Positions 19,397 through 56,499 of a stretch of 64,000 nt of DNA are shown here, in pieces; within the stretch, counting starts at the first letter, position 1, and the number at the start of each line of letters is the position of its first letter. A program made the translations under genes and the position numbers. The notes under the pieces were generated by a model. It made no database searches and was not told the origin of the DNA. It saw only the letters and a list, made by a program, of their open reading frames with translations. Source of the stretch: an uncultured Stenotrophomonas sp. (GTDB lineage Bacteria; Pseudomonadota; Gammaproteobacteria; Xanthomonadales; Xanthomonadaceae); the NCBI GenBank assembly GCA_913775725.1, contig CAJYNG010000027.1:1-64000 (forward strand). The letters run 5' to 3'.

Positions 19397-19843
19397 TCAA
19401 TCCAGCTCACAATCCACTACCAGATCCCTGCGCGTCAGAACGGGAAGCTGCGCTTCAAGGTCAGCGCCCATGAACTGCACGTAGATCAAGCCTTTCTGGT
19501 CTGCGCGTTTGTTTCCAAGCAGCACCCGGTCCTTACCCCTTGAATGCTCCGTGCCGACCAGCACGAATCCACGGGTCGGGCTCAGATCCCGACTCCATCG
19601 AACGCCATCGTAGGAAGGATGATTCCCAATATAGACTTCAACGTCCTTGCCAGCCAGCTTTAACAGTCCTTGTTCAAAATCCAGTCCCGGCGCTTTCACG
19701 TGGTAGCTGTCACCGGCCTGAAGAAAGATGCATACCCCAAACTCGCGGCTCATCGGAGTTGGAACGTCGCTGCCACGATGCGTACATGCACCGAGGCAGC
19801 CCACGCCGACCAAGAGAAGCAGCGTCGTCCTATTGGCTCGCAC
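19397..19843 (-). CDS. Small lipoprotein, putative immunity protein of the RHS toxin
   Basis: A 148-residue protein not recognised as any named family. The N-terminus is basic then hydrophobic and ends in LGAC, a lipobox with Cys20, so it should be lipid-anchored on the periplasmic side. The mature part is mixed polar, with one internal Cys (CIFLQAGDSYHVKAP) and a Cys near the C-terminus (VVDCELD). It starts with GTG 14 bases inside the end of the RHS gene, so it is translationally coupled to it. Position, size and location fit an immunity protein against the HExxH domain at the RHS C-terminus, but this is inference. An accessory lipoprotein for surface display is the alternative. GC content is lower than the genome around it. 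Confidence 0.6.
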   Translation of the reverse strand: MRANRTTLLLLVGVGCLGACTHRGSDVPTPMSREFGVCIFLQAGDSYHVKAPGLDFEQGLLKLAGKDVEVYIGNHPSYDGVRWSRDLSPTRGFVLVGTEHSRGKDRVLLGNKRADQKGLIYVQFMGADLEAQLPVLTRRDLVVDCELD

Positions 19844-22800
19844 AGCCGCACCCTCTCACGATGGTTCTGTTCTTCCAGGGATCCAGAACATCTTCCAAGT
19901 TCTTTCCGTCCGGTCTGGCACCATTGAGGTTGCTGCTCATGATGCCGGTCTCTCCTTCATTCACAAGGCCCAGCAAGTGCCCAGCCTCGTGAGGATAGAG
20001 GCTATCGGCGGACCATTGGCCGGGAACGAACCATTCGCCTGAGTTGAGATTGGGTGCATCGACATAGGAGCGTCCGGTGCCCTGGGTCAACGTTATGTTG
20101 TTGACCGTAGCAGCAGGGCGGCTCATGCGATACACCTGGACCCGCGTAACCACGTTGTAACTCCCAATCCGACCACTCCACGCCCTTTCGATGGATGACT
20201 TGATCATCGCGACATCGGAGGAAGAGCCTCCGCTGAAGTTGATCGGAATGGAAATTCCGATGTTCTTCCCTTTCTGGCAAACGTAGCCGATCAAGCCAAG
20301 TGGATCGACAATCTCCACAGGATTGGAAGAAGCATAGACATACGTGTTTGGACCTCCCGCCTTCCCTATGGGATCACTTTGCAGATACCGACCGACATTT
20401 GCGTCGTAGTCGCGGAATCCGCTGTACCACAGGCCAGACTCAGAGTCGAAGTAATGCCCTGGCAAGCCAATGTTGATCCCTCCGATATCGTCCTGCGTGA
20501 CGGTGCGCCCATATGCATAGTTGTACGCCTTCCACCGCACCTGCCCAACATCGTTGGCAGCGAACTCAGGCCGCCCCAGGTGATCGGTTCTCACCGTGTA
20601 GACATCGGGTCCGCGCGTAACGGCAATGAGCTCGCCCATGAACCAGATATAGTTCGACCATCCCTGGCCTTCGGCACCATCGGACATGATCTGGTTCTGG
20701 CCAAGATAGGCATAACTGATCCTGCTGCCATCGCCTCCCAGCTTTCCACTTCGCTGCCCGAGCCCATTGACAACATACTGGGTATCGTTGCCATTGATTG
20801 TGGCGCCAACCATGCGATTGAATCCATCGTACCGGTAACTGCGCACATCGCCCTGCGAAGACTCGGCGGTCCGGTTTCCCATTGCGTCATGCGTGTACAC
20901 CCGGTCAGCCTCGCCTGGCCGGTTGGAGAGATACCCCAGCAACCGGTTACTGCCCGTCTCGAAGGCGTATTGACGGGAAGCAGACTGATCCGTGTGACTC
21001 AGCCAGTTTCCGTTCGCATCATAAGTCATGATGTGATCAAGACCTGAGCGCGACAAGCGGGACAGCCGCCCATCAGGATCATGCTCAATGACCTGCGTCA
21101 ACTGCGGAGCGAGGCGGTCCTCGATTGATCGCATATGGCCCGCTGCATCGAACGTGTACGCCAGCTCCTGCAGCGCAGTGCCGTTCCCTGCAGGCACAGC
21201 AGACCGCCCCGACAGACGCCCGCCAAGGTCATACGTATTTCTGTACGACATGCCATTGCCAAGTGTCAGCTCGGCTACGGCCCCGCTCGGAGTGTAACGA
21301 GCGCCCGCAACGATCGAGCGCGAGACACCTCCAACAATGACATTGAGACCAGCAAGGCGAGCTCCAGCGTAGGTGTACTCAGCAACCACCCCATCCGGAT
21401 ACGTAATGCCCGACAGTCGTCCACTCGCCTCATAACGGATTCCAAGAACGCTGCGCTGCATACCCTGCGCAGAGAATTCCTCAGAGCGCTCCGCCAACTG
21501 TCCATCCTGGGCATACTTGAAACTGACAACGGATTGAGGCGTTGAAGCCGTACACATGCGCCCGGTTCCGTTCACGCAACCATCGTAGGTGAAGTGGCGC
21601 TCGTCTCCTGCGGCCACCACGGAAAGGACTCGCCCAATCCCGTCGTACTGCATCGTGGCTTGCGCACCATCGGATCGCACGTTTCCCATCACACGTGCCG
21701 GCGCAGCGTAACTATAAGTACTGATTCCGGTGTCAGGACTAACCTTCAACCACGCCCGCCCAAATCCGTCACGCTCATAGCGGGTCTGGAAACCACCTTG
21801 ATCGACGATTCCAACAATACGATCAAGCCCATCGTAGTGGAAGTATTGGACAGATCCAGAAGCGGCCTGGGACGAGACCACACGCCCCAGTGCATCGTAG
21901 TTCGACCGCTGGACATTGCCTGCCCCATCGATCAGCTCGACCTGATTCCCGTTGCCATCGTACTTGAAATGCTGTGTTGTTCCGGCACCATCGCTGCGGG
22001 AAATCATTCGACCGAGCTCGTCGTAGCCATAGTTGACCCGAGAGAGCACTTCTCCCGGCCTGACACCCGCGATCGCGGAGACTGCAGCCTCAGCGATCGT
22101 CTCGCCTCGACTGACCAGCCACAGACGCATGCCCGCCGCAGTGACGTTGGTCAAAGCGATGCTGCCTCCAGGACCGCTCGCCAATTGAGTGCCTGCCCCA
22201 CTTCCCGCGGCCGCCCAAAGCTCCGCACTGCCTTGGGACACCAGCCATTGCACTGTTGCCGAACACGTCGATTGCCCCCAAGGTATGGTGCAGGGATTGG
22301 GGCTTGCCGTGATGCTGCCGACTGGTGCTGGCGGAACCTGGAAGGTGCCAGAGCCACCAATCAGACTGTTGGCTCCGCCGACAGGCGAAATGCCATGAAC
22401 AAAGAGCCCCTTCCCGACCTGATCACGACGCTGGGAATAAGTCAGTGGTATCGAGAACCGATAACGTGAGCCTGACGCTCTGCACGCTGTGGCGACGGCC
22501 GCTTCACTCGCCTGATCGGCGCGAACGCCCGCCAGGAATACGCCACCTTGACCCGCCGCTCCACCGGCGTAAAGGTGGACGTCGATGGAATCGTCACGGT
22601 TCGTACTGCAGGCCCAGCCCTGCAGTGTGGTTCCATCACTGGAAAGTCCGTCAATGTTTCCCGTAACCAACGAGGGCGGTGCACTTACCTTGACGGCGAC
22701 ATTGGTGGTGTAAACACCGAACCATTCGACGCCGTCCTGCACCATCTGCCACTGGAAGTTGTAGACACCTGGCGTAGTTGGCGAACGCACCTGCGCAACT

Positions 22801-23741
22801 ATCACAGCCGTAGCACCTGGCCCGATATCACCAGGCAGAGACAGGCGATAAGTTCCCCACGCTGCGTTGTCGTTCAGGGATCCAAGCGCATAGCCGGCCG
22901 CGGAAGTCCATGTGGTGTTGCCTGCATTGTTCATCCGCAGGGAGACACTGTAGGTTTTCCCTGCCTCCATCTCGGCGGGCACATTCTGGTCGATGAAATG
23001 CGCCTTGTTGATGGGACCATTCACCCATAACGTCGCCAGGCCGGACGCCGCACCGAAACGGCCGGCACCGTTGCGTATCATCTGCAGTTGGAATCCATAC
23101 TCGCCGGGTGGCGGCGTGGTGACGTTGATATTGAAAGTAACCGTCTGGCCAGGTGCGACAGCATGCGGAACGGGCACATTGGAGAATGACCATGTGCTTG
23201 CATAGCTGTCGTGCGAACCTCCCAATTGATATTCATAGCCTGCCGGCCATGTAGTGTTTCCCGTATTGCGCACCGTCGCGGTGAACGTATAAGGCGTGCG
23301 ATGCTGCAGGGGACCGGGGATTGTCGAACCGACGAATTCGGCGCCGTCGAATGGTGCAGGTGGTGCATTGACCGTAATCGGACCGACTGCCGATACCAAC
23401 GATCGCCGAGTCTGGTCGCCGTCAGGAAGGTTGCGCACGGCATCCGCGCGCAGTTCATAGTAATAGGTGCCCGGGCTGAGGCCGGCCTCCCGATAGACTC
23501 CACCCGCCTGGATCGTAACGACCGTGCCGTTCCGCAACAGACGCAATCCATCAATGTACTCCGCCTTGGGACCGGTGGTCGTAACCCCCCAGTTGACCTT
23601 CAGCTCGAACACCGCCGGCGCCTGATAGGTGCTGCCGGCCGGTGGGCCATCCAAGCGGATCCACCCCTCGGCGGCAGCACTGCCGATCATGGCAAGGAGC
23701 AATAGAACGCATAAACCGAAGTCCCGAATGAATCTACTCAT
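19830..23741 (-). CDS. Secreted RHS/YD-repeat protein with C-terminal HExxH (metallopeptidase-like) domain
   Basis: A 1303-residue protein. In order: signal peptide (1-24, ending AAA); an Ig-like domain (about 25-128); two NBR1-type Ig-like domains (about 130-240 and 245-355, each with NTGNTTW or NAGNTTW); a GNIDGL...GWAC domain (about 360-470); YD repeats (about 570-1110) such as YDGNGNQVELIDGAGN; the RHS core with GLWYSGFRDYDANVGRYLQ and SDPIG, ending VDPLGL near 1150. The last 153 residues are a separate domain with HEAGHLLGLVNE (H1251, E1252, H1255) and a Met-turn-like GIMSS, as in zinc peptidases, though the usual third His/Asp ligand position is Asn. The ATG overlaps the stop of the preceding YD gene (ATGA); the end overlaps a lipoprotein gene. 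Low GC suggests transfer. Confidence 0.85.
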   Translation of the reverse strand: MSRFIRDFGLCVLLLLAMIGSAAAEGWIRLDGPPAGSTYQAPAVFELKVNWGVTTTGPKAEYIDGLRLLRNGTVVTIQAGGVYREAGLSPGTYYYELRADAVRNLPDGDQTRRSLVSAVGPITVNAPPAPFDGAEFVGSTIPGPLQHRTPYTFTATVRNTGNTTWPAGYEYQLGGSHDSYASTWSFSNVPVPHAVAPGQTVTFNINVTTPPPGEYGFQLQMIRNGAGRFGAASGLATLWVNGPINKAHFIDQNVPAEMEAGKTYSVSLRMNNAGNTTWTSAAGYALGSLNDNAAWGTYRLSLPGDIGPGATAVIVAQVRSPTTPGVYNFQWQMVQDGVEWFGVYTTNVAVKVSAPPSLVTGNIDGLSSDGTTLQGWACSTNRDDSIDVHLYAGGAAGQGGVFLAGVRADQASEAAVATACRASGSRYRFSIPLTYSQRRDQVGKGLFVHGISPVGGANSLIGGSGTFQVPPAPVGSITASPNPCTIPWGQSTCSATVQWLVSQGSAELWAAAGSGAGTQLASGPGGSIALTNVTAAGMRLWLVSRGETIAEAAVSAIAGVRPGEVLSRVNYGYDELGRMISRSDGAGTTQHFKYDGNGNQVELIDGAGNVQRSNYDALGRVVSSQAASGSVQYFHYDGLDRIVGIVDQGGFQTRYERDGFGRAWLKVSPDTGISTYSYAAPARVMGNVRSDGAQATMQYDGIGRVLSVVAAGDERHFTYDGCVNGTGRMCTASTPQSVVSFKYAQDGQLAERSEEFSAQGMQRSVLGIRYEASGRLSGITYPDGVVAEYTYAGARLAGLNVIVGGVSRSIVAGARYTPSGAVAELTLGNGMSYRNTYDLGGRLSGRSAVPAGNGTALQELAYTFDAAGHMRSIEDRLAPQLTQVIEHDPDGRLSRLSRSGLDHIMTYDANGNWLSHTDQSASRQYAFETGSNRLLGYLSNRPGEADRVYTHDAMGNRTAESSQGDVRSYRYDGFNRMVGATINGNDTQYVVNGLGQRSGKLGGDGSRISYAYLGQNQIMSDGAEGQGWSNYIWFMGELIAVTRGPDVYTVRTDHLGRPEFAANDVGQVRWKAYNYAYGRTVTQDDIGGINIGLPGHYFDSESGLWYSGFRDYDANVGRYLQSDPIGKAGGPNTYVYASSNPVEIVDPLGLIGYVCQKGKNIGISIPINFSGGSSSDVAMIKSSIERAWSGRIGSYNVVTRVQVYRMSRPAATVNNITLTQGTGRSYVDAPNLNSGEWFVPGQWSADSLYPHEAGHLLGLVNEGETGIMSSNLNGARPDGKNLEDVLDPWKNRTIVRGCGCASQ

Positions 23742-25858
23742 GGCTGAGTCCCCCGGCCTGGGTCGGCAAATACACGCTGTACTGTTTCAGTGACCGGAAG
23801 CGAGAACGCGTTGTACTCATATCTCGTTTCCGCAAAGCTTCCATTCGGCTCAGGCATCGAGGTAGACAGCAGCCGACCAGCCACGTCATAGAGGTGGGAA
23901 ATCCTGACACCATCCGGCCCGGTCACGGACGCGAGCTTGCCAAAGGCGTCGTATTCATAGTGGGTCGTGCGGACACCACTGGACAACAGCAGACGAACCT
24001 CGGAAGGTCGTCCACGCGAGTCGTAAACGAAATCCGTACGCACACCGTTCACGTCAATCGAGTAACCCGGATAGCCGTAACCCGTGTACCCGCCCATGAC
24101 CACAGCGTGCCCGAGGCTGTTCTCGATCCGCACCAGGTCACCCAACTCCGAGTAGGTGGACGTCACCGCATCACCACTACCCGATGCCGGCCCGTCCTCG
24201 ACCATCCTGCTGACAAGGCCATTGGGGTGCAGCTGATAGCTGAAGGTAGTCGTCTGCACTTCGCCCTGCGCATGACCGGCAACCAAGCTCTTCTCCGAGC
24301 GGGACACCAGCCGATTATTTGCGTCGTAGGCATAGCGGGTTTCAAGCACCCCCTGCAGTGTTTCCGCCACGACACGGTTGCCCTGCTCATCCCACTCGAA
24401 TGTCGTCACCCGCGCACTGGGCGTGCCGCTTGCTTCTTCACGGCGAAGAAGATGGCCATGGGTGTCGTACTGATAGCGGGTCAGGTTTCCTTCGAAATCC
24501 GAAGTGAGCGATGTATTCCCGTTTTCGTCGTAGTGCGTTTCGCTATAGCCTGCGGCACAGTTTGCCGAAGGAAGGCCTTCGATGGCGATCAGTCTCCTGT
24601 CCTTGAAACGATAGCGGGCGACCTTTCCAAGCGGGTTGGTCTCCACGGTAACGCTCTCTCCATTGGCTCCCGGCTCATACGCGAAGCCAAACCGCTCGAC
24701 GCCCCCCGCATGCGCCGTCGAAGTCGCACGATTCTTATCGTCGTAGGTGAACATCGAGTAGCGGCGACCATTGATCGACTTACCGGTGAGCAGCGGCAAC
24801 CCGTAGGTCTGCCCCAGCTCCTTGTACATGTAGTGATACTTGACCGTGGTGGCAGGAGTGCCGTTGTAGGTAACCGACTCCAGGAAGCCGTATACGTCCT
24901 GCGTGTATCCGTATTCGATGGTATTTCCCTGCGGGTCCCGCACTCTGATCACACGCGGATCAACGCCAGTCTGTGCATTTTTCTGGATCCACGTGAACTC
25001 AATGTAGCGGCCATTGCTATGGGTGACACGCTGCAGCTGGGAACCTTCAGGACCTCCGTAACTGAAGGTCCAGCGCACGCCGTTGGCGTTCCGGATCTCC
25101 ACCATCTTGGTGCCTTCATAGGTCTCCGTAGTCAGGTCGGGGCTCAGGTAGATCCACTTTCCGCCCGCAACTGACTTCAACTGCCCGCCCTGCTGTGCAC
25201 CATCCTCCCGGTAAATACCGTCGACTCCTCGCTTGAACACCAGATAACGACCATCGGGGCGGCGCATGCGCGCCTCGTTCGAGTCCGTGTAGACGACCAG
25301 CTGCCGATCAAGGTTGCTGTACCACGTGTCAAAAATGTTGAAGCGGTCCATCACAGCCGAGTTGAAGGTACGCTCGAGCGTCAATGGCATCTCGCCACCG
25401 CCAGTGAAATCCAGCTCGGTTTCCACTTTCGTACCGGTCCGAAGAACCACCGGGTTGCCACTCTTCGGGCACTCGTCGGCGGCATCCCTCCCCGACTGGT
25501 CCGGCTCTCCTTTACTGGGTTCGACGAAGTCATCCCATTGATTCGGCCTAGGGAAAAGATTCGAAGGAACGCCCCAGAGCGACATGAACCCGTCCAGTCG
25601 CCCAGGCACCACACCATCGGCGACAGCATCCACCCGTGGAAGGGTGGTGATACCAGGTCCTGCGCCCGCGCCGGCACCACCCGATCCCGGCTGATTCTGG
25701 ATGATTCGCCCGTCAGCCTCAGCAGGCGCCAAGCAGACAATAACGCTCAACAGTGCAGCGGGAAAAAGATGAAGTTCACGACACATCCACCCAGTAGCAG
25801 CCTCCTGGATGCGTCGAGTGGGCAGGAGGCAGGACATCAAGCGGAATGCCGAATCCAT
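23738..25858 (-). CDS. Secreted YD-repeat protein with DUF6531-type N-terminal domain
   Basis: A 706-residue protein. A hydrophobic export segment (residues about 30-46, ending PAEA) is followed by a Gly/Pro-rich spacer and the RHS N-terminal DUF6531-type unit (KSGNPVVLRTGTKVETE and LTLERTFNS, about 145-185), then YD repeats to the end. It has no RHS core and no toxin-like tail, so it looks like the front half of an RHS protein whose rear half is the next gene, coupled by ATGA. GAGGGAA before the ATG at 25858 supports this start; ATG 25786 would give a cleaner signal peptide. Both halves carry their own export signal, so the split appears to be functional, not a frameshift. Confidence 0.8.
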   Translation of the reverse strand: MDSAFRLMSCLLPTRRIQEAATGWMCRELHLFPAALLSVIVCLAPAEADGRIIQNQPGSGGAGAGAGPGITTLPRVDAVADGVVPGRLDGFMSLWGVPSNLFPRPNQWDDFVEPSKGEPDQSGRDAADECPKSGNPVVLRTGTKVETELDFTGGGEMPLTLERTFNSAVMDRFNIFDTWYSNLDRQLVVYTDSNEARMRRPDGRYLVFKRGVDGIYREDGAQQGGQLKSVAGGKWIYLSPDLTTETYEGTKMVEIRNANGVRWTFSYGGPEGSQLQRVTHSNGRYIEFTWIQKNAQTGVDPRVIRVRDPQGNTIEYGYTQDVYGFLESVTYNGTPATTVKYHYMYKELGQTYGLPLLTGKSINGRRYSMFTYDDKNRATSTAHAGGVERFGFAYEPGANGESVTVETNPLGKVARYRFKDRRLIAIEGLPSANCAAGYSETHYDENGNTSLTSDFEGNLTRYQYDTHGHLLRREEASGTPSARVTTFEWDEQGNRVVAETLQGVLETRYAYDANNRLVSRSEKSLVAGHAQGEVQTTTFSYQLHPNGLVSRMVEDGPASGSGDAVTSTYSELGDLVRIENSLGHAVVMGGYTGYGYPGYSIDVNGVRTDFVYDSRGRPSEVRLLLSSGVRTTHYEYDAFGKLASVTGPDGVRISHLYDVAGRLLSTSMPEPNGSFAETRYEYNAFSLPVTETVQRVFADPGRGTQP

Positions 25859-26053
25859 ACGTATTCCCTCGCATGGATTCGCGCACGCGCCATCCATGAC
25901 GTCGTCAACACGTTGATACTGCGATTGATCCGCCAGGCACTGGCGGCTCCCCAGGGTAGGACGTTGCGCCCCAAGCCCCAGCCGCCTAGATACGCCCGGA
26001 ACCGCCCCTTGTCAACAATCGCTGCATCTCTGTACCGACAGCATGGCCCGCCG
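25859..26053. other. Upstream region of the RHS operon
   Basis: 195 bp with no supported gene. It must hold the promoter of the YD/RHS operon; a TTGACG-like box lies on the minus strand at 25903-25908 but no good -10 follows. Base composition rises here from the low-GC island to normal. Confidence 0.4.
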
Positions 26054-26617
26054 CTACCGCCCCTGCATCCGCACCACATGCTGGCCCTTCACGATCTCGA
26101 AGGTGAAGGCGTACTGCAGGGTGACCGCTACCGGCTCGACGCGCTCGGCGCCGCGGCAGTCGCCGCGATCAGCCGGCACCTTGCCCGGTGCGAAGTAGCA
26201 GACCGCGGCGGACGAGTACTTCCACATCGCAACCGCCTCCTGCGCGGCCTGCAGCAAGGGCGCATTCTCCGGCGCCCCACCTGCATTGCATGCGCTGCGG
26301 TCTGTCAGCGGCATGCTGCGTTCGACGCTGCCCTGCGCATCGACCACCACCTGCAGGCAGATGGTGGTCGACGCCAGTTCCGCACGCGGGTCGCGATCGC
26401 CGACCTGTGGATCCGGTGCCACGTGCAGCTGCGGCATCCGGTAGCCCTCGCTCGCACCCAGCGAGTACGCCTGCACCTGTCCATTGCCGCCACCAGCCTT
26501 TGGCTGCAGTCGCTGGTGGCCGACATTCTCGCTGCGGGTATCGACGGTGGTCAGGCGATCCTGGGTTGCACATCCGGCCAACAGCGCCGCCGTCAAGAAC
26601 AGCGGCGCGGACTTCAT
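26054..26617 (-). CDS. Lipoprotein with TonB-C-like domain
   Basis: A 187-residue predicted lipoprotein: lipobox LLAGC at residues 12-16. After a Gly-rich linker, residues about 80-180 have the strand-helix-strand pattern of TonB C-terminal domains (TTICLQVVVDAQGSVERSMP, then a helix and AVAMWKYSSA), with an inserted Cys-containing loop. The ATG overlaps the stop of the BlaR1-like gene (ATGA), making it the third gene of that operon. It repeats the type of domain found at the C-terminus of the BlaR1-like protein, so the two may work together. No function is known. Confidence 0.65.
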   Translation of the reverse strand: MKSAPLFLTAALLAGCATQDRLTTVDTRSENVGHQRLQPKAGGGNGQVQAYSLGASEGYRMPQLHVAPDPQVGDRDPRAELASTTICLQVVVDAQGSVERSMPLTDRSACNAGGAPENAPLLQAAQEAVAMWKYSSAAVCYFAPGKVPADRGDCRGAERVEPVAVTLQYAFTFEIVKGQHVVRMQGR

Positions 26618-27813
26618 TTCGCGTCCTCGGTGTTATCCATGGCGTAGGTGATCGGAATGCGTACAGCACCAGCCACCGGCTTGCCGTTCTTCACCGCTGG
26701 GCGATAGGTCCAGCTGCGCGCGGCGGCGATGGAGACGGCGTCGAACACCCCCGGATTGGTCGCACTGAGCACCTGCACATCGGTTGGATGGCCTTGTGCA
26801 TCCACTTCGATGCGCAGATTGACCACGCCTATCTGGCGCTGCTCGAAGGCGGACTTCGGATAGGACGGCGGCGGCATCTTGTCGACCTGGATCTCCCGAT
26901 CCATGACGGACCCTGCCGGGCCTCCCGCCGCACCGCCCTGGCTGGCCCACGCCACCGCGCCCATTCCCACGCACAACCCGACTACCAGCATCTGCCCCGA
27001 CACCCACGGCACTGCCTTCCGCTTGGACTGCTTCAACATGGCGATACGCTCCTTCAACACGGGTTGGCTGCGCCAATGGCAGACCGCGGGCGCAACCGGG
27101 TGGACCAGCTGCGCCTTCAGCAGCGTGCTGGCATAGAGGCCGCGCAGCGCAGGCCGCAGGCCGATGGTGCGGGCATCGCAGGCCAGCTCCTGATCGCGCA
27201 GGAAGCGGCGTGCAGCCCATGGCAGCAGCGGGTGGAACCAGAACACCGCGCGCGCCAGCAGCAACGCGCCATTGGCCCAGTGATCACCATTGCGACGGTG
27301 GCTGCGCTCGTGCTGCAGGATCAGCGCCTGCTCCTGTTCGGTGAATCGCTGGTCGAAGTCAGGGCCGACCACGATGCGCGGCCGCCACAGGCCAACCAGC
27401 GCGGGCAGGCCTGGATCTTCGCTGGCCTGCCAGCTGCCATCGGTGCGCGCGCGCAGTGGGCCCATGCTGCGTTCGAAACGGCGCTGCGCACGCAGGTCGC
27501 GCAGCAGGAAGATGCCCGTGCCCAGCGCCCATGCCAGCAGCAACAGCGGCGCCCATGGCAGCGACTGCCCTGCCAGTTCGTTCACCGCCCCTGGCACGAC
27601 TTTCAGCGGCACTGTCGGCACGTGCTGCAACAGCGCAGCCTGTGGCAATGGCAGCAGCAGGGTCACCAACAGCAACGGCAGCAGCCACCAGCTGCGGTAG
27701 GCCAGCCCTGCGCCGCCCAGGCTCACCAGCAGCGGTCGCAGCGCCGCCAGCAGCAGCACGCCCACCGCCAGCCACAGGCTGGCCCGCCACAGTCCGTCGA
27801 GCAGCTCAGTCAT
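26614..27813 (-). CDS. BlaR1-like M56 membrane metallopeptidase with TonB C-terminal domain
   Basis: A 399-residue protein. Membrane helices lie at about 8-26, 40-60 and 85-103; then comes an M56 peptidase with the zinc motif HERSH (HExxH) in LILQHERSHRRNGDHWAN, flanked by FWFHPLLPW and RDQELACDA, all M56 signatures. A fourth helix (about 272-292) precedes a periplasmic TonB-type domain (about 310-395) with VNLRIEVDAQG and ARSWTYRPA. BlaR1/MecR1 normally carry a penicillin-binding sensor at this place; that sensor is missing, so the signal is probably not a beta-lactam. Its start overlaps the end of the blaI-like gene by 8 bases. Confidence 0.85.
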   Translation of the reverse strand: MTELLDGLWRASLWLAVGVLLLAALRPLLVSLGGAGLAYRSWWLLPLLLVTLLLPLPQAALLQHVPTVPLKVVPGAVNELAGQSLPWAPLLLLAWALGTGIFLLRDLRAQRRFERSMGPLRARTDGSWQASEDPGLPALVGLWRPRIVVGPDFDQRFTEQEQALILQHERSHRRNGDHWANGALLLARAVFWFHPLLPWAARRFLRDQELACDARTIGLRPALRGLYASTLLKAQLVHPVAPAVCHWRSQPVLKERIAMLKQSKRKAVPWVSGQMLVVGLCVGMGAVAWASQGGAAGGPAGSVMDREIQVDKMPPPSYPKSAFEQRQIGVVNLRIEVDAQGHPTDVQVLSATNPGVFDAVSIAAARSWTYRPAVKNGKPVAGAVRIPITYAMDNTEDAK

Positions 27814-28171
27814 GGTCCAGCTCCTGGATCAGCTTCTTCAGTTCGGCAATGTCCTGCGCACTCAGCTGGCCGCGTTCGCTGAAGTGCGCCACCAGTGGCG
27901 CCACGCGGCCCTCGAAAACACGCCCGATGAAGTCCTGGCTCTGCGCCTCCACCCATGCCTGGCGCTGCAGCAGCGGCCGGTACAGGTAGCGCCGGCCATC
28001 GCGCTCGGCGGCGATCGCGCCCTTGGTCAGCAGGCGGTTGAGCAGGGTCTTGATGGTCGGCTCGGCCCAGTCGCGGTGGGCCAGCGCGGCCACCACGTCA
28101 TCGGCGCTACGCGGTGCCTGCTGCCACAGCACCTCCATCACAACGGCTTCGGCTTCGCTGATCGGGGTCAT
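27806..28171 (-). CDS. BlaI/MecI-family transcriptional repressor
   Basis: A 121-residue winged-helix repressor of the BlaI/MecI/CopY family: ISEAEAVVMEVLWQQAP, then TIKTLLNRLLTKGAI as recognition region and RYLYRP in the wing, followed by a helical dimerisation domain. Family members are inactivated when the partner M56 peptidase, here the next gene, is triggered. Two palindromic sites lie directly upstream between a TTGACA -35 box and the ATG, so it probably represses its own operon. The flavin reductase-like gene is divergent and may be under the same control. Confidence 0.88.
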   Translation of the reverse strand: MTPISEAEAVVMEVLWQQAPRSADDVVAALAHRDWAEPTIKTLLNRLLTKGAIAAERDGRRYLYRPLLQRQAWVEAQSQDFIGRVFEGRVAPLVAHFSERGQLSAQDIAELKKLIQELDHD

Positions 28172-51336: not shown

Positions 51337-54300
51337 TTACCAGCCGATGCCCACACCCACGCCCATGCTGCGTTCACCGCTGTTGGTGAACGCGCCATTG
51401 AGGCTGAAGGTGGCTGAGCCCTTGTCGTTGAGTACGCGCTGGTAACCCACCGCCATGGCCGACTCGCCCTCGGCGTAGCCCACGCCCGCACCGAGGCGGT
51501 TGTAGGTGGCCAGGCCGGCGGTGTTCATGGCCATGGCCGTCTGCGCGCTGCTCATCGCCGCCATGCGGTTGAAGCGCTTGTCCATCTTGTCCAGGCGGCG
51601 TTCGAAGTTGCTGATCGCGCCATCGGTGTATTCGTTGGCGCGGGCCAGCATCTTCTCCAGTTCGGCGGTATCGACCTGTGGCGTGGGCGACGGCGTGTCG
51701 TCCTTCTTCGACTTCGGCTGCGGTGTGGGCGACGTGCCCTCGCCTGCCGAGGCCACCTGTGGCGAATCGCTGACTTCCGGCGTTGGCGTGACCTGCTCGG
51801 TGGGCGCGGCCGAAGCCGTAGACAACGCACGCGACTGCGGCTGGCCATCCACGCGCTGCTCCAGGCCATCCATGCGGCCATTGAGCTGCTGCTGCACGGC
51901 ATGCAGCTGGCCACCGTTGACCGCTTCGCGGCTGCCGGCCGCGATCAAGCCGTTGGCCACGTTGGAGATGACCATCCCGTTGGCGCCGGCCAGGGTGAGC
52001 TGGGCGGTGCCGTCGCTACGGGTAGAGGGGGTTTCCTGGAAGACCGAGCGGAGCTGGGTTTCGACGCGGTCCATGCGGGAGCCGGTGGTGACTACGGCGG
52101 AGTCCAGCGTGGTGAGAGCGTCGTTGACGGTGTTCTGGTGCTGGCCCTGGATGTTGAAGCCGGGGGTGGTGACGTTGCCGTTGGCGTCGATGTTGCCGCC
52201 GAGGGCGGACAGGGCGCCGCGGAGCTGGCCGATGGTGGCTGCGTCGTTGGCGTTGCGGCCGTTGGCTACGTTCACGAGGCGGCGCTGGTATCGGCTGTTT
52301 CCGAAGGACGCCGTGTCAGCTTCCGTGGCGATCGCACCCATGCCAATAGCGACAGACCTGACCGCACCGACTTCTGTTCTGCTAACTAAGCCTAGCGCCA
52401 CGCTATCAGCCCCAGCTGCACGTGACCCAGCACCGAGAGCGAATGCACCTTCTGCCCCCTCCTCAACCAGGGCACCTCTACCCAGCGCAACCGAATTCTT
52501 GCCCCAAGCAATCGCATAAGCCCCCAGGGCTGTTCCTCCCTCATTTCCATCCTGCGGTGTCGCCTGCGCGGATTCACCGATCGCAACACCAGACGATCCA
52601 GCCTTGGCCTCTTCACTGAAATCATCCCGGCCGATCTTGAAGAATCGATGAGTTGATTCCACGCTCGCGATTCTTTCATTGGTCGCATAAAGCTGACCAC
52701 CGTTAACTGCATCAGTACTGAAGGCAGATGAGATGTCCCCCGAATCAATCCCAGTCAATCGCGATCCAGCGAAATCGATCGGTCCGCCGCGCAGATCAAG
52801 TGCTTCCTGAAGGGCATACTTCACACCTCCGTCTGACATGTTCTTCATACGCTCGATTTCATCTCCATTCCTGGCGATTTCCTGCTTGGCTGCGTACAGC
52901 TGGCTACCCGTAACTGCATCACGGCTGCCTGCAGCAATGCGTCCATCGGCCAGATTCGACAGAACCATGCCTTGCGCACCTGCCAGATTCAGCTGGCCAA
53001 CGCCATCCGCCCGGATCGAGGGTGATTGTTGGAACGTCGAACGCAGCTGACCTTCGAGGCCATCTACGCGAATGTCCGAGCTGACCACGGCACCATCGAG
53101 TGCAGCCAAGGCGTCTCCGACATTGTTCTGCTTGCCACCTTGTACGCTATAGGTAGGCCCAATAACGTTCCCGAAAGCATCCAGGCCTGCACCGCCACCG
53201 AGTCCAGCAAGAGCTTCGTTGAGCTGCGTAATGGTGGTCGCTTCGTGATCGGAAATGCCACGATCAAGGTTCACCAGGCGCCGCTTTACAGAGCTGTTAC
53301 CCACTGAAACGGTGTTTTCTTCGGTTGCAACTGAATAAGAACCCAGCGCCACGGCGCCATCAGCGCCCGCTACGACACGGCTCAACGCTCCAAAAGCGAC
53401 TCCCTCCTTCGCATACACGTTGGAACCGACCCCCAACGCAAAGCCGCTTTCTGCAGTCTCCGCAACAACCGCCCCCCTTCCTAGCGCGACTGAGTTCAAT
53501 GCATCTGCAGCCGCAAAGCTACCTAAGGCTACCCCGCCCTCAGAACTCACCGAAGCTCTTGCTGAATCGCCCAGTGCAATCCCAAGCAGCCCGGCATCGG
53601 CATCAATGCTCTCATCGTCAAAACCAATGCTGAGGAATCTCCCCTCCCGTTCGATCTCTCTGACTCGAACATTGGTCGCAAACAACTGCCCGCCATTCAC
53701 CGCATCCGTGCTGGTCGCAGAACTGATATCACCCGCTGCCACACCCGATACACGCGCGCCTTCCATGTCCACCAGCAGGCGATCAGCACTGAACTTGACC
53801 ACGTCATCCAGATCCGGATCGAAGTTATCGAAGTCCGCACGCAACGCATCCAATTCGACCCGGTTGTCGGCGATACGCCCGTCCTGATCCGTCAGCTGCT
53901 GCGCATGCCCAGCCAGAGCCTGTCGCTGTGTCTCCACCGTGGTATTGGTCGCAAACAGCTGCTGCCCGGTCACCGCATCCGTGCTGCCCGCACTCAGCGT
54001 GCCGTTGGCGATGTTGTAGATCCGCCGCTTGCCACCGCTCTTGTTTGCGACATCCACAATGGTGCCGGTGTTCTCTGCACCCAGGCGGACATTGCCGCTG
54101 GCAGACACCTGGCCCACCAGGCCGCCCAAGGCATCAGCCTTCTGCACAGCGCCATCGGCCACGCCACGGGCGGCATCGGCCGCCGTCTTCGCCGCGGTTG
54201 CCGCCGTGCGCACGCTGGTCACTTCGCTATTGGTGGCATTGAGCTGCTGCCCGGTCACTGCATCCGTGCTGGACGCACTGAGCACGCCATTGGCCAGGTT

Positions 54301-56499
54301 CTGCAGCTTGCGCTTGGCGCCGGCCTTGTTGGCCACGTCGATGACGGTGCCGGTGTTGTCTGCGCCCAGGCGCACGTTTCCACTTACCGATGCCTGCCCC
54401 ACCAGGCCATCCAGTACCGCCACGCGCGCCTGCGCTGCGTCTGCCGTGGACTTCACGGCGGCAACGTTGCCGTTGGTGGCATTCAACTGCTTGCCGGTGA
54501 CGGCCTCCGTGCTTGATGTGCTCAGTGCCCCATCCTTCAGGCCGGTGATGCTGCGCACCGCATTGGACTTGTTGCGGGCATCCAGCACCGTGCCGGTGTT
54601 CTCTCCACCCAGGCGTACGTTGCCGCTGGCAGATACCTGACTCACCAAGCCACTGACCGTATTGGCCTTGGCCAGCGCTGTATTGGCGTTGGTGTTGGCC
54701 GTAGTGGCGGTGGTCTGCGCTGCCGTGGCCGTCGTCTTCGCCGCGTCGGCCGCCGTCTGAGCAGTCGTCACATTGGTGTTGGTTGCGTTGAGCTGCTTGC
54801 CCGTCACAGCTTCCGTACTGGATGTAGAAAGCGCCCCATCCTTCAGGCCGGTGATGCTGCGAACGGCGTTGGACTTGTTGCGGGCATCCAGCACTGTCCC
54901 GGTGTTTTCGCCACCCAGGCGTACGTTGCCACTGGCAGATACCTGGCTGACCAGGCCACTAACCGTATTGGCCTTGGCCAGCGCCGTATTGGCGTTGGTG
55001 TTGGCCGTAGTGGCCGTTGTCTGCGCTGCCGTGGCCGTCGTCTTCGCCGCGTCGGCCGCCGTCTGAGCAGTCGTCACATTGGCGTTGGTTGCATTGAGCT
55101 GCTTACCCGTCACGGCTTCCGTACTGGATGTAGAAAGCGCCCCATCCTTCAGGCCGGTGATGCTTCGAACAGCATTGGACTTGTTGCGGACATCCAGCAC
55201 GGTGCCGGTGTTCTCGCCGCCAAGGCGCACGTTGCCACTGGCCGATACCTGGCTGACCAGGCCACTGACCGTATTGGCCTTGGCCAGCGCTGTATTGGCG
55301 TTGGTGTTGGCCGTGTTGGCCGTGGACTGCGCTGCCGTGGCAGTTGTCTTCGCCGCGTCAGCCGTGGTCTGGGCCTTGGTTACATTGGAGTTGGTGGCAA
55401 ACAGCTGTTGTCCGGTAACCGCATCGGTACTGCTGGCGCTCAGCGCTCCGTTACGGATTCCATTGAGGTAGCGCGTTGCATTGTTCTTGTTGGCGAAGCT
55501 GACAGTGGTGCCGGTATTGTCACCGCCCACACGTACGCTGCCACTGGCCGATGCCTGGGTGACCACACGCGAATTGGCCAAGGCCTGATCTGCAGTGGAC
55601 TTGGCGGTGGTAGCGGTAGTGTTGGCCGTATTGGCTGTTCGCTGCGCGCCGGCGGCGGCGTCCGCGGCCGTCTTGATATCATTTTTTGCCGTCTGCAGCT
55701 GTCGGCCGTTTACCGCGTCAGTACTGCTGCTGCTGATGGTGCCGTCGGCAACATTGACGATCCGCCGTTTCGTAGAACCGTTGCCCACCGATACGGTGTA
55801 GGCCTCGGTGGCCTGCGACCCGCGCCCGAGTGCCACAGAGTTGGCCGCGCTTGAACGCGCCTGGTACCCCAGGGCAATGCTGTCGTGGGACGCAGACGCT
55901 TCGCCACCGAGTGCAACGGCCCCCGTCCAGCCCTGCGTGCCCGCACGTGAGTCGGCACCGATGGCGATACCGGAAACGCCCGCCCCGGTTATGACCGTCG
56001 CCTTGCTGCCCAGCGCGACCGCGTTGCCGCCATAGGCGTTCGCATCATTGCCAATCGCCGTTGCACCGATTCCCGTGGCGTTGGCAAAAGCACCTACGGC
56101 GGTGGCATACCCGCCCGCTACACCGGCGCCATAGCCGAAGGCGGAGTTACGGTCACCATAGGAGGTGATGTTGTTACCAAACGCAGTCGCATAGTCGCCT
56201 TCGAACGTGATGGCATTGCCGGTCAGCAGCACGAAACGCCCATTCCCACTGATCCACTGGTAGTCATGCACCCATGCCCAAGTCGGCACGCATCCTTGGC
56301 TGGCGGTGTAGCACGAGAAAAGATTGCGCTCCGCATGGGCGGTGCCGGCCGCACCGAACAACATGACCAGCGCCGCTGCCGTACTGCGTCGAAGGGGGCG
56401 TGTGGAAGCCCCTGGCTTACGCTTTGTGGACGCGAGCTCACTGGTGACCACCCAGCACTGCCGGGCGGTGGACCAAAGACGGCGGTAAATCCTGTTCAT
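51337..56499 (-). CDS. YadA-type trimeric autotransporter adhesin
   Basis: A 1720-residue trimeric autotransporter. The N-terminus is an extended signal peptide (MNRIYRRLWSTARQCWVV type) with cleavage after AHA56. YadA-head left-handed beta-roll repeats (SVALGRGSQA, AVALGGEASA) fill about 75-225; necks (STDAVNGRQL, AVTGQQL) alternate with Ala/Thr-rich coiled-coil stalk. Three units of 102 residues around 365-670 are nearly identical. A second head region lies at about 985-1100 and another at about 1325-1420. The C-terminal anchor (about 1640-1720) ends GVGVGIGW. It is an outer-membrane adhesin expected to mediate attachment and biofilm growth. AAGGAG stands before the ATG. The middle of the gene (52.3-53.7 kb) has much lower GC than both ends. 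Confidence 0.92.
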   Translation of the reverse strand: MNRIYRRLWSTARQCWVVTSELASTKRKPGASTRPLRRSTAAALVMLFGAAGTAHAERNLFSCYTASQGCVPTWAWVHDYQWISGNGRFVLLTGNAITFEGDYATAFGNNITSYGDRNSAFGYGAGVAGGYATAVGAFANATGIGATAIGNDANAYGGNAVALGSKATVITGAGVSGIAIGADSRAGTQGWTGAVALGGEASASHDSIALGYQARSSAANSVALGRGSQATEAYTVSVGNGSTKRRIVNVADGTISSSSTDAVNGRQLQTAKNDIKTAADAAAGAQRTANTANTTATTAKSTADQALANSRVVTQASASGSVRVGGDNTGTTVSFANKNNATRYLNGIRNGALSASSTDAVTGQQLFATNSNVTKAQTTADAAKTTATAAQSTANTANTNANTALAKANTVSGLVSQVSASGNVRLGGENTGTVLDVRNKSNAVRSITGLKDGALSTSSTEAVTGKQLNATNANVTTAQTAADAAKTTATAAQTTATTANTNANTALAKANTVSGLVSQVSASGNVRLGGENTGTVLDARNKSNAVRSITGLKDGALSTSSTEAVTGKQLNATNTNVTTAQTAADAAKTTATAAQTTATTANTNANTALAKANTVSGLVSQVSASGNVRLGGENTGTVLDARNKSNAVRSITGLKDGALSTSSTEAVTGKQLNATNGNVAAVKSTADAAQARVAVLDGLVGQASVSGNVRLGADNTGTVIDVANKAGAKRKLQNLANGVLSASSTDAVTGQQLNATNSEVTSVRTAATAAKTAADAARGVADGAVQKADALGGLVGQVSASGNVRLGAENTGTIVDVANKSGGKRRIYNIANGTLSAGSTDAVTGQQLFATNTTVETQRQALAGHAQQLTDQDGRIADNRVELDALRADFDNFDPDLDDVVKFSADRLLVDMEGARVSGVAAGDISSATSTDAVNGGQLFATNVRVREIEREGRFLSIGFDDESIDADAGLLGIALGDSARASVSSEGGVALGSFAAADALNSVALGRGAVVAETAESGFALGVGSNVYAKEGVAFGALSRVVAGADGAVALGSYSVATEENTVSVGNSSVKRRLVNLDRGISDHEATTITQLNEALAGLGGGAGLDAFGNVIGPTYSVQGGKQNNVGDALAALDGAVVSSDIRVDGLEGQLRSTFQQSPSIRADGVGQLNLAGAQGMVLSNLADGRIAAGSRDAVTGSQLYAAKQEIARNGDEIERMKNMSDGGVKYALQEALDLRGGPIDFAGSRLTGIDSGDISSAFSTDAVNGGQLYATNERIASVESTHRFFKIGRDDFSEEAKAGSSGVAIGESAQATPQDGNEGGTALGAYAIAWGKNSVALGRGALVEEGAEGAFALGAGSRAAGADSVALGLVSRTEVGAVRSVAIGMGAIATEADTASFGNSRYQRRLVNVANGRNANDAATIGQLRGALSALGGNIDANGNVTTPGFNIQGQHQNTVNDALTTLDSAVVTTGSRMDRVETQLRSVFQETPSTRSDGTAQLTLAGANGMVISNVANGLIAAGSREAVNGGQLHAVQQQLNGRMDGLEQRVDGQPQSRALSTASAAPTEQVTPTPEVSDSPQVASAGEGTSPTPQPKSKKDDTPSPTPQVDTAELEKMLARANEYTDGAISNFERRLDKMDKRFNRMAAMSSAQTAMAMNTAGLATYNRLGAGVGYAEGESAMAVGYQRVLNDKGSATFSLNGAFTNSGERSMGVGVGIGW
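54465..55382 (-). repeat. Three tandem 306-bp repeats in the adhesin gene
   Basis: The period is 306 bp (102 codons): the CATTGG(T/C)GTTGGTTG sequence at 54771 recurs at 55077, and related copies start near 54465. Each unit codes for SASGNVRLGGENTGTVLD, the neck STEAVTGKQLNATN and a coiled-coil segment rich in Ala, Thr and Asn. They differ by scattered silent changes. Confidence 0.8.

Follow-up and report, generated by a model that had tools for sequence, protein, structure and literature searches.

What does an RHS protein do for its bacterium when it ends in a zinc-peptidase-like tail and its gene overlaps that of a small lipoprotein? This question is raised by a 64,000-nucleotide stretch of DNA from an uncultured Stenotrophomonas sp. 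(the window; assembly GCA_913775725.1, contig CAJYNG010000027.1, positions 1 to 64,000 of the forward strand), whose genome comprises 4.56 Mb with a completeness of 99.8%. The 1303-aa RHS protein consists, in this order, of a signal-peptide-like N-terminus (by eye), two NBR1-type immunoglobulin (Ig)-like stretches, RHS repeats, an RHS core and the peptidase-like tail, so that RHS repeats and Rhs_assc_core precede a variable tail as in polymorphic RHS proteins. An earlier note, made from the letters alone, had described an RHS core ending in VDPLGL, a separate 153-residue tail, and a 148-residue lipoprotein gene with a GTG start that overlaps the RHS end by 14 bases; the core at residues 1075-1150, the open reading frames (ORFs) and the overlap (19830-19843) confirm this. 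On the sequence comparisons and models described here, the locus is probably a polymorphic RHS toxin-immunity pair with a metzincin-like tail and a periplasm-facing lipoprotein as its inhibitor.

The tail harbors the motif H1251-E1252-A-G-H1255-LLGLV-N1261 and a downstream GIM1268. Across 36 aligned tails no column is fully invariant apart from the three made up by H, E and H of HExxH, and this motif is present in 40 of 41 tabulated tails (the exception is L098), demonstrating that it is not there by chance. The metzincin signature is HExxHxxGxxH/D. At the position of the third ligand (position 11) the 40 HExxH tails have D (22), H (3), N (3) or another residue (12), and several of the latter contain inserts that possibly displace the ligand; leaving aside the three Asn-bearing tails, D or H is found in 25 of 37. 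Asn is limited to the window protein and to two nearly identical sister proteins, encoded in genomes G639 and G630. Because the H or D of the metzincin clan is replaced by N1261, the window copy is termed metzincin-like and is not classed as a metzincin. The earlier note had considered the third ligand to be out of its usual place: the residue is unusual, but its place is the usual metzincin position.

The structure model of the tail (predicted local distance difference test, pLDDT, 88.1; predicted template modelling score, pTM, 0.87) has the HExxH on one helix (96-107), which supports the zinc-peptidase layout that had been proposed; the downstream GIM is a candidate Met-turn. Among the structural matches listed, 49 of 50 are metzincins by title, and therefore the fold is probably metzincin-like and not new; a new fold, which the earlier note had thought possible, is not supported. 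With the window tail no Pfam or NCBIfam family was found up to E 10. Across the 36 tail members the best peptidase families were Reprolysin_3 (3.8e-5) and M6dom (1.3e-4) in a scan without displayed cut-offs.

As far as the searches reach, the tail family occurs mainly in the order of the window (Xanthomonadales level). A protein search (E 0.01) gave matches in 15 of 297 genomes of the taxonomic family; 3 of the 16 matches were spurious (L013-L015, chance out-of-frame) and were dropped. With profile searches (E 0.001), in which weak matches were mostly uninspected, 31 of the 398 genomes of the order and 22 of the 91 of the genus were positive. At class level another profile and a stricter limit (E 1e-6) than in the order search gave 2 of 369 genomes, one of them the window's own, and the searched plasmids and viral contigs contained no relatives. 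Forty regions were fetched from the family, order and genus searches, most weak matches being left out. L098, which lacks HExxH, stands outside the 36-tail alignment, the tree and the neighbour counts and inside the 40 of the immunity-family count; L071, L100, L101 and L102, whose frames are short or odd, stand outside the alignment and the tree. An RHS-core-like end lies in frame before the tail at 35 of the 40 fetched loci, the other five being too short or odd in frame. In Xanthomonas pisi, a 50% identical tail lies beside a type A lipoprotein. Distant tail homologues (23-31% identical) were detected at five loci of other phyla: L222, L224 and L226 (Micrarchaeota), L223 (Bacteroidales) and L225 (Ignavibacteria). 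At the three loci read by eye (L222, L223, L225) there was no RHS and the next gene was not a lipoprotein. The same tail without its neighbour, named by the earlier note as evidence against a pair, was found among these distant homologues only. The search which that note had proposed, for RHS tails sharing C-terminus and neighbour, recovered a tail family in which the neighbour is co-inherited.

In the lipoprotein, a Cys follows a hydrophobic stretch (L17-G-A-C20, by eye, with C16 as a weaker candidate), and a lipobox regular expression matched the copies of the sisters (L063, L064). A library scan gave only KorB_C at 0.008, under its cut-off. The next gene was read for each tail region, and export was scored by one crude rule (hydrophobic N-terminus or lipobox), with the neighbour starts of L067, L092 and L099 set by hand. 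A hydrophobic N-terminus or lipobox was found in 35 of 39 family neighbours and a lipobox in 19 of 39. Four were scored as non-exported (L079, L090, L094, L101): by eye a signal peptide is visible in L090, and in the remaining three the start or the frame is doubtful. Beside control RHS tails without HExxH, 33 of 55 neighbours were exported or hydrophobic and 7 of 55 had a lipobox (Fisher P against the family 0.002 and 0.00017, respectively); the 60 control cores had been chosen by hand from the upper part of the list, with ORF limits slightly unlike those of the family set. For the control tails with another HExxH these counts were 5/5 and 3/5. Five genus RHS tails that have HExxH outside the family (L159, L161, L168, L185, L209) each adjoin a gene for a protein that by this rule has a lipobox or hydrophobic N-terminus.

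A broad immunity family around the window lipoprotein includes 24 of 40 neighbours (9 of them seeds or copies) and 0 of 60 controls. It was obtained with iterative profiles that joined types A, A' and four others, whose E-values relate to a 100-sequence set and whose inclusion is self-reinforcing; in the first pass, 4 of the 31 family neighbours that were not seeds scored below E 0.01, as did none of the 60 controls. Types B, C and D stay outside this family, and a single immunity family for all tails was rejected: in direct profile comparison, A against A' (E 0.0011) did little better than the comparisons with C (0.0036) and B (0.0018). On the tail tree the neighbour type changes 7 times (minimum 6, shuffled mean 22.5, 0/200 shuffles as low), with group A2 as a remainder that we set ourselves; when A, A' and A2 are merged, 5 changes for five states are counted. 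Type D occurs inside the type A clade, once at L076, whose tail groups with type A tails (starred support), and a change of partner is likely there. Tail and immunity distances correlate (r 0.82, 0/5000 permutations) in a Mantel test, for which 19 of the main immunity family's 24 pairs were used.

The type A profile was found in 9 of 91 genus genomes, where 7 copies adjoin a tail and 2 have no RHS gene within ~1.5 kb, and in 11 of 398 order genomes, where 6 adjoin a tail and 5 have none within ~1.5 kb. The orphan of G622 (L151:5795-6238, 86% identical) occupies the chromosomal site of the window with both flanks kept and the RHS genes absent. Its Cys20 is replaced and the weaker lipobox candidate Cys16 remains. 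Homology extends ~20 bases beyond the immunity start into the toxin 3' end, which fits toxin loss, the presumed direction of the change. In G116 (L232), an orphan type-C-like lipoprotein (463-969, by eye) is followed ~0.5 kb downstream by a type A orphan (1450-1929) with no toxin, a possible immunity array. The ratio of non-synonymous to synonymous substitution rates (dN/dS) of the window against G639/G630 was 0.067/0.062 for the scaffold, 0.144/0.233 for the tail and 0.070/0.070 for the immunity gene. Taken together, co-inheritance, the orphans and a neighbour type that follows the tail clade support the lipoprotein as the probable immunity protein, as had been suggested.

The N-terminal scaffold was found in 25 of 91 genus genomes, in some via one domain only. 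Besides the two sisters, the nine best scaffold relatives (L142-L150) are 42-48% identical and all end in other tails (by eye), which supports the earlier view of a polymorphic RHS toxin; a second long RHS-like ORF lies upstream in 8 of 9 (by eye). By their motifs, these tails include HNH-like, JAB-like and deaminase-like ones, the JAB-like motif being the GFFHTHP of L146. By eye, an export signal is missing from six of the eight neighbours listed; those of L146 and L148 are lipoprotein-like, and none is listed for L149. Therefore, where the immunity protein is located appears to depend on the tail rather than on the carrier, and an envelope target is suggested for the window tail. In L146 (G606), a related scaffold carries the JAB-like tail beside a lipoprotein-like neighbour, as reported for Tox-JAB-1/Imm65.

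Of the type VI secretion system (T6SS), only the VipB family (PF05943) was searched; it was absent from the window's own genome (0/1), and 1 of 14 control genomes, E. coli, was positive. T6SS delivery is therefore unlikely in the window's strain and was set aside. The type IV secretion system coupling-protein family PF02534 is present in the genome. A non-T6SS route is suggested by the N-terminus, which is of Sec type, and by the RHS partner encoded upstream. According to the proposed mechanism, the 719-aa and 1303-aa RHS proteins would be exported by Sec, as their N-termini indicate, and would probably build an RHS shell enclosing the tail, which could be freed at the DPLGL core end. The tail would act as a small zinc endopeptidase cutting a protein or peptide target, presumably located in a competitor's periplasm or envelope, while the lipoprotein facing the periplasm would bind and block the peptidase, shielding the maker and its siblings.

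Several observations weigh against this mechanism or the evidence for it. With N1261 in place of the usual D or H, the activity of the window copy may be low or absent, and the tail dN/dS of 0.14-0.23 exceeds that of the scaffold (0.06-0.07), on 9 tail changes per comparison. Foldseek gives 1 match at E <= 0.001 and unrelated proteins from rank 20 on, and the structural Z for the immunity model is < 8, a range where chance arrangement is common. The neighbour statistics rest on related rows and near-copies, shared genome descent remains in the pairing statistics, exported neighbours are also frequent beside other RHS tails (33/55), and because the main immunity family does not include types B, C and D, the pairing is not one-to-one over the tail family. 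A chance motif beside an unrelated neighbour nevertheless has a negligible probability, being refuted by the invariance of HExxH over 36 tails and by the tree concordance. It is rather unlikely, though to be taken seriously, that the family toxin works and that the window lineage (three near-identical proteins) has a degenerate Asn copy, at a locus retained for the sake of its immunity gene or of some role other than catalysis. The restriction of Asn to the window, G639 and G630, the lower dN/dS of the immunity gene (0.07, against 0.14-0.23 for the tail) and the immunity gene without toxin in G622 speak for such decay, whereas the tail frame is intact in three species with dN/dS well below 1 (few substitutions), and HExxH, Gly and Met are retained.

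We consider it improbable that the tail is a secreted housekeeping or nutrient-scavenging metzincin whose inhibitor guards the producer's periplasm during export, as with AprA/AprI and potempins, with no role as a weapon against rivals. The tail sits at the variable RHS end, its scaffold relatives bear tails that we take to be nuclease-like and deaminase-like and have mostly non-exported neighbours, its occurrence is sporadic (22/91 genus genomes), and there are orphan immunities and a possible two-type array, all of which speak against this reading. In its favour are the distant homologues of other phyla, of which three out of five were read and lack RHS, and the cited passages in which AprI is presumed to protect its producer (PMC4070987) and an inhibition by potempins of the protease expressed with them is reported (PMC7296668). 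Slightly less probable still is a tail acting in the target cytoplasm, with a lipoprotein that is exported merely since its carrier crosses the periplasm. The signal-peptide-like carrier N-terminus and the 38 of 60 control RHS neighbours that by the crude rule also look exported or hydrophobic would agree with this; on related Sec-type scaffolds, however, 6 of the 8 neighbours listed lack an export signal by eye and 2 resemble lipoproteins.

Table 1. Coordinates of the RHS toxin-immunity locus within the window.
Feature	Position	Strand	Basis
Upstream partner gene, 719 aa, DUF6531 + RHS repeats	23738..25897	-	ORF; PF20148 4.6e-12, PF05593 2.2e-29
RHS carrier + candidate toxin, 1303 aa	19830..23741	-	ORF; PF16158 1.2e-13, PF05593 1.4e-24, TIGR03696 1.1e-19
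Rhs_assc_core, residues 1075-1150, ends VDPLGL	20292..20519	-	library scan
Putative toxin tail, residues 1151-1303, predicted metzincin-like domain	19833..20291	-	36-tail alignment; structure model; structural matches
HExxH zinc site, H1251-H1255	19977..19991	-	invariant in 36/36 aligned tails; helix 96-107 of tail model
N1261, third-ligand position	19959..19961	-	table of 41 tails
M1268, candidate Met-turn	19938..19940	-	sequence; role inferred
Putative immunity lipoprotein, GTG start, 148 aa	19397..19843	-	ORF; profile searches; model pLDDT 80.0
Lipobox candidate L17-G18-A19-C20	19784..19795	-	sequence, by eye
C38, invariant in immunity alignment; disulfide with C145 (19409-19411) possible	19730..19732	-	disulfide inferred

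The 3' end of the partner gene overlaps the 1303-aa RHS gene by 4 bases. The genes around the locus include a metallo-beta-lactamase-fold gene on one side and a BlaR1-like M56/TonB_C gene together with a penicillinase-repressor-like regulator (26614-28171, -) on the other. Elsewhere, the window encodes a 1720-aa adhesin of the YadA-type trimeric autotransporters (51337-56499, -). The same genome has a second RHS protein of 1625 aa on contig C8 (L152), with another tail and a next gene that is lipoprotein-like (by eye).

The metzincin fold is common to ADAMs and matrix metalloproteinases. A polymorphic toxin-immunity pair at this locus would give Stenotrophomonas, Xanthomonas and relatives a further toxin family, metzincin-like and matched by several candidate families of inhibitors, and would allow testing of a repeated origin of natural metzincin protein inhibitors and of T6SS-free delivery of Sec-signal RHS toxins. 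Only tentatively do we propose a T6SS-independent antibacterial route, in which a Sec-exported two-protein RHS shell (DUF6531 + Ig/RHS) has exchangeable tails, here metzincin-like toxins, every clade of tails is served by an exported immunity family of its own, and a single toxin fold has thus acquired at least three to four inhibitors that are apparently unrelated. AprA, one of the proteases compared below, is not known as a polymorphic toxin.

A periplasm-acting metallopeptidase with exported immunity is already published as a concept. In the literature consulted, no publication joining metzincin, immunity protein, toxin and Rhs was found, and the tail family and its immunities were not recognised, Tox-MPTase and Tse2 being compared by description only. 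PAAR2-Tse2/Tsi2 of Stenotrophomonas rhizophila (PMC13340143) is described as a putative karilysin-like metalloproteinase effector with a signal-peptide immunity protein, Tsi2, similar to potempin A. It shares genus, putative metalloproteinase effector and an immunity protein with an export signal with our locus, whereas Tse2 is, by description and not by sequence comparison, a PAAR-fused T6SS effector and the window encodes an RHS protein, whose N-terminus is of Sec type, in a genome without VipB. No potempin was matched by the window lipoprotein profile among PDB sequences or occurred among the 50 matches listed for the immunity model. In the cited account of VgrG2b C-ter/PA0261 (Tpe-Tpi, PMC6899460), a periplasm-acting HExxH metallopeptidase toxin is paired with envelope-targeted immunity proteins, predicted lipoproteins in Enterobacteriaceae, with partly conserved cysteines; our putative pair would resemble it in these respects, but VgrG2b is fused to a T6SS spike and its reported homologues are thermolysin-like (DUF4157), where the window tail is predicted to be metzincin-like.

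Tannerella potempins and KLIKK proteases (PMC7296668; PDB 8b2q by title) likewise combine a small lipoprotein inhibitor with an adjoining gene for a secreted metzincin, karilysin. There, as far as described, the inhibitor gene precedes the protease and RHS is absent, whereas our lipoprotein gene lies downstream of a candidate RHS toxin. Listeria Mtz/Tim (PMC8235301), a secreted metzincin and a lipoprotein of TIMP-like structure with cell-wall action, is phage-derived and Gram-positive, and its abstract leaves RHS unmentioned. AprA/AprI (PMC4070987) has a periplasmic inhibitor encoded near a secreted metzincin; in the cited passages AprI is a periplasmic signal-peptide protein and not described as a lipoprotein, unlike our lipoprotein candidate. 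Tsi3, a periplasmic immunity protein described as resembling MOG1P and PsbP (PMC3792639), is among the matches listed for the window lipoprotein model, below Z 8. The earlier note had called a lipoprotein inhibitor of a peptidase effector an uncommon pairing. In the parts of the 2012 survey cited here (PMC3482391) Imm65 is indeed the sole lipoprotein immunity named, but the later cases and the 38 of 60 exported or hydrophobic control neighbours make it less so. The same survey describes Tox-MPTase1-5 as small zincin-like toxin domains, distantly Wss1-like, typically with N-terminal RHS repeats and with the type II secretion system/Sec among their export routes; by description the window tail may equal one of them, Tox-MPTase1 above all. 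The locus represents a known kind of system that holds an apparently uncatalogued family, compared with Tox-MPTase1-5 and Tse2 by their descriptions.
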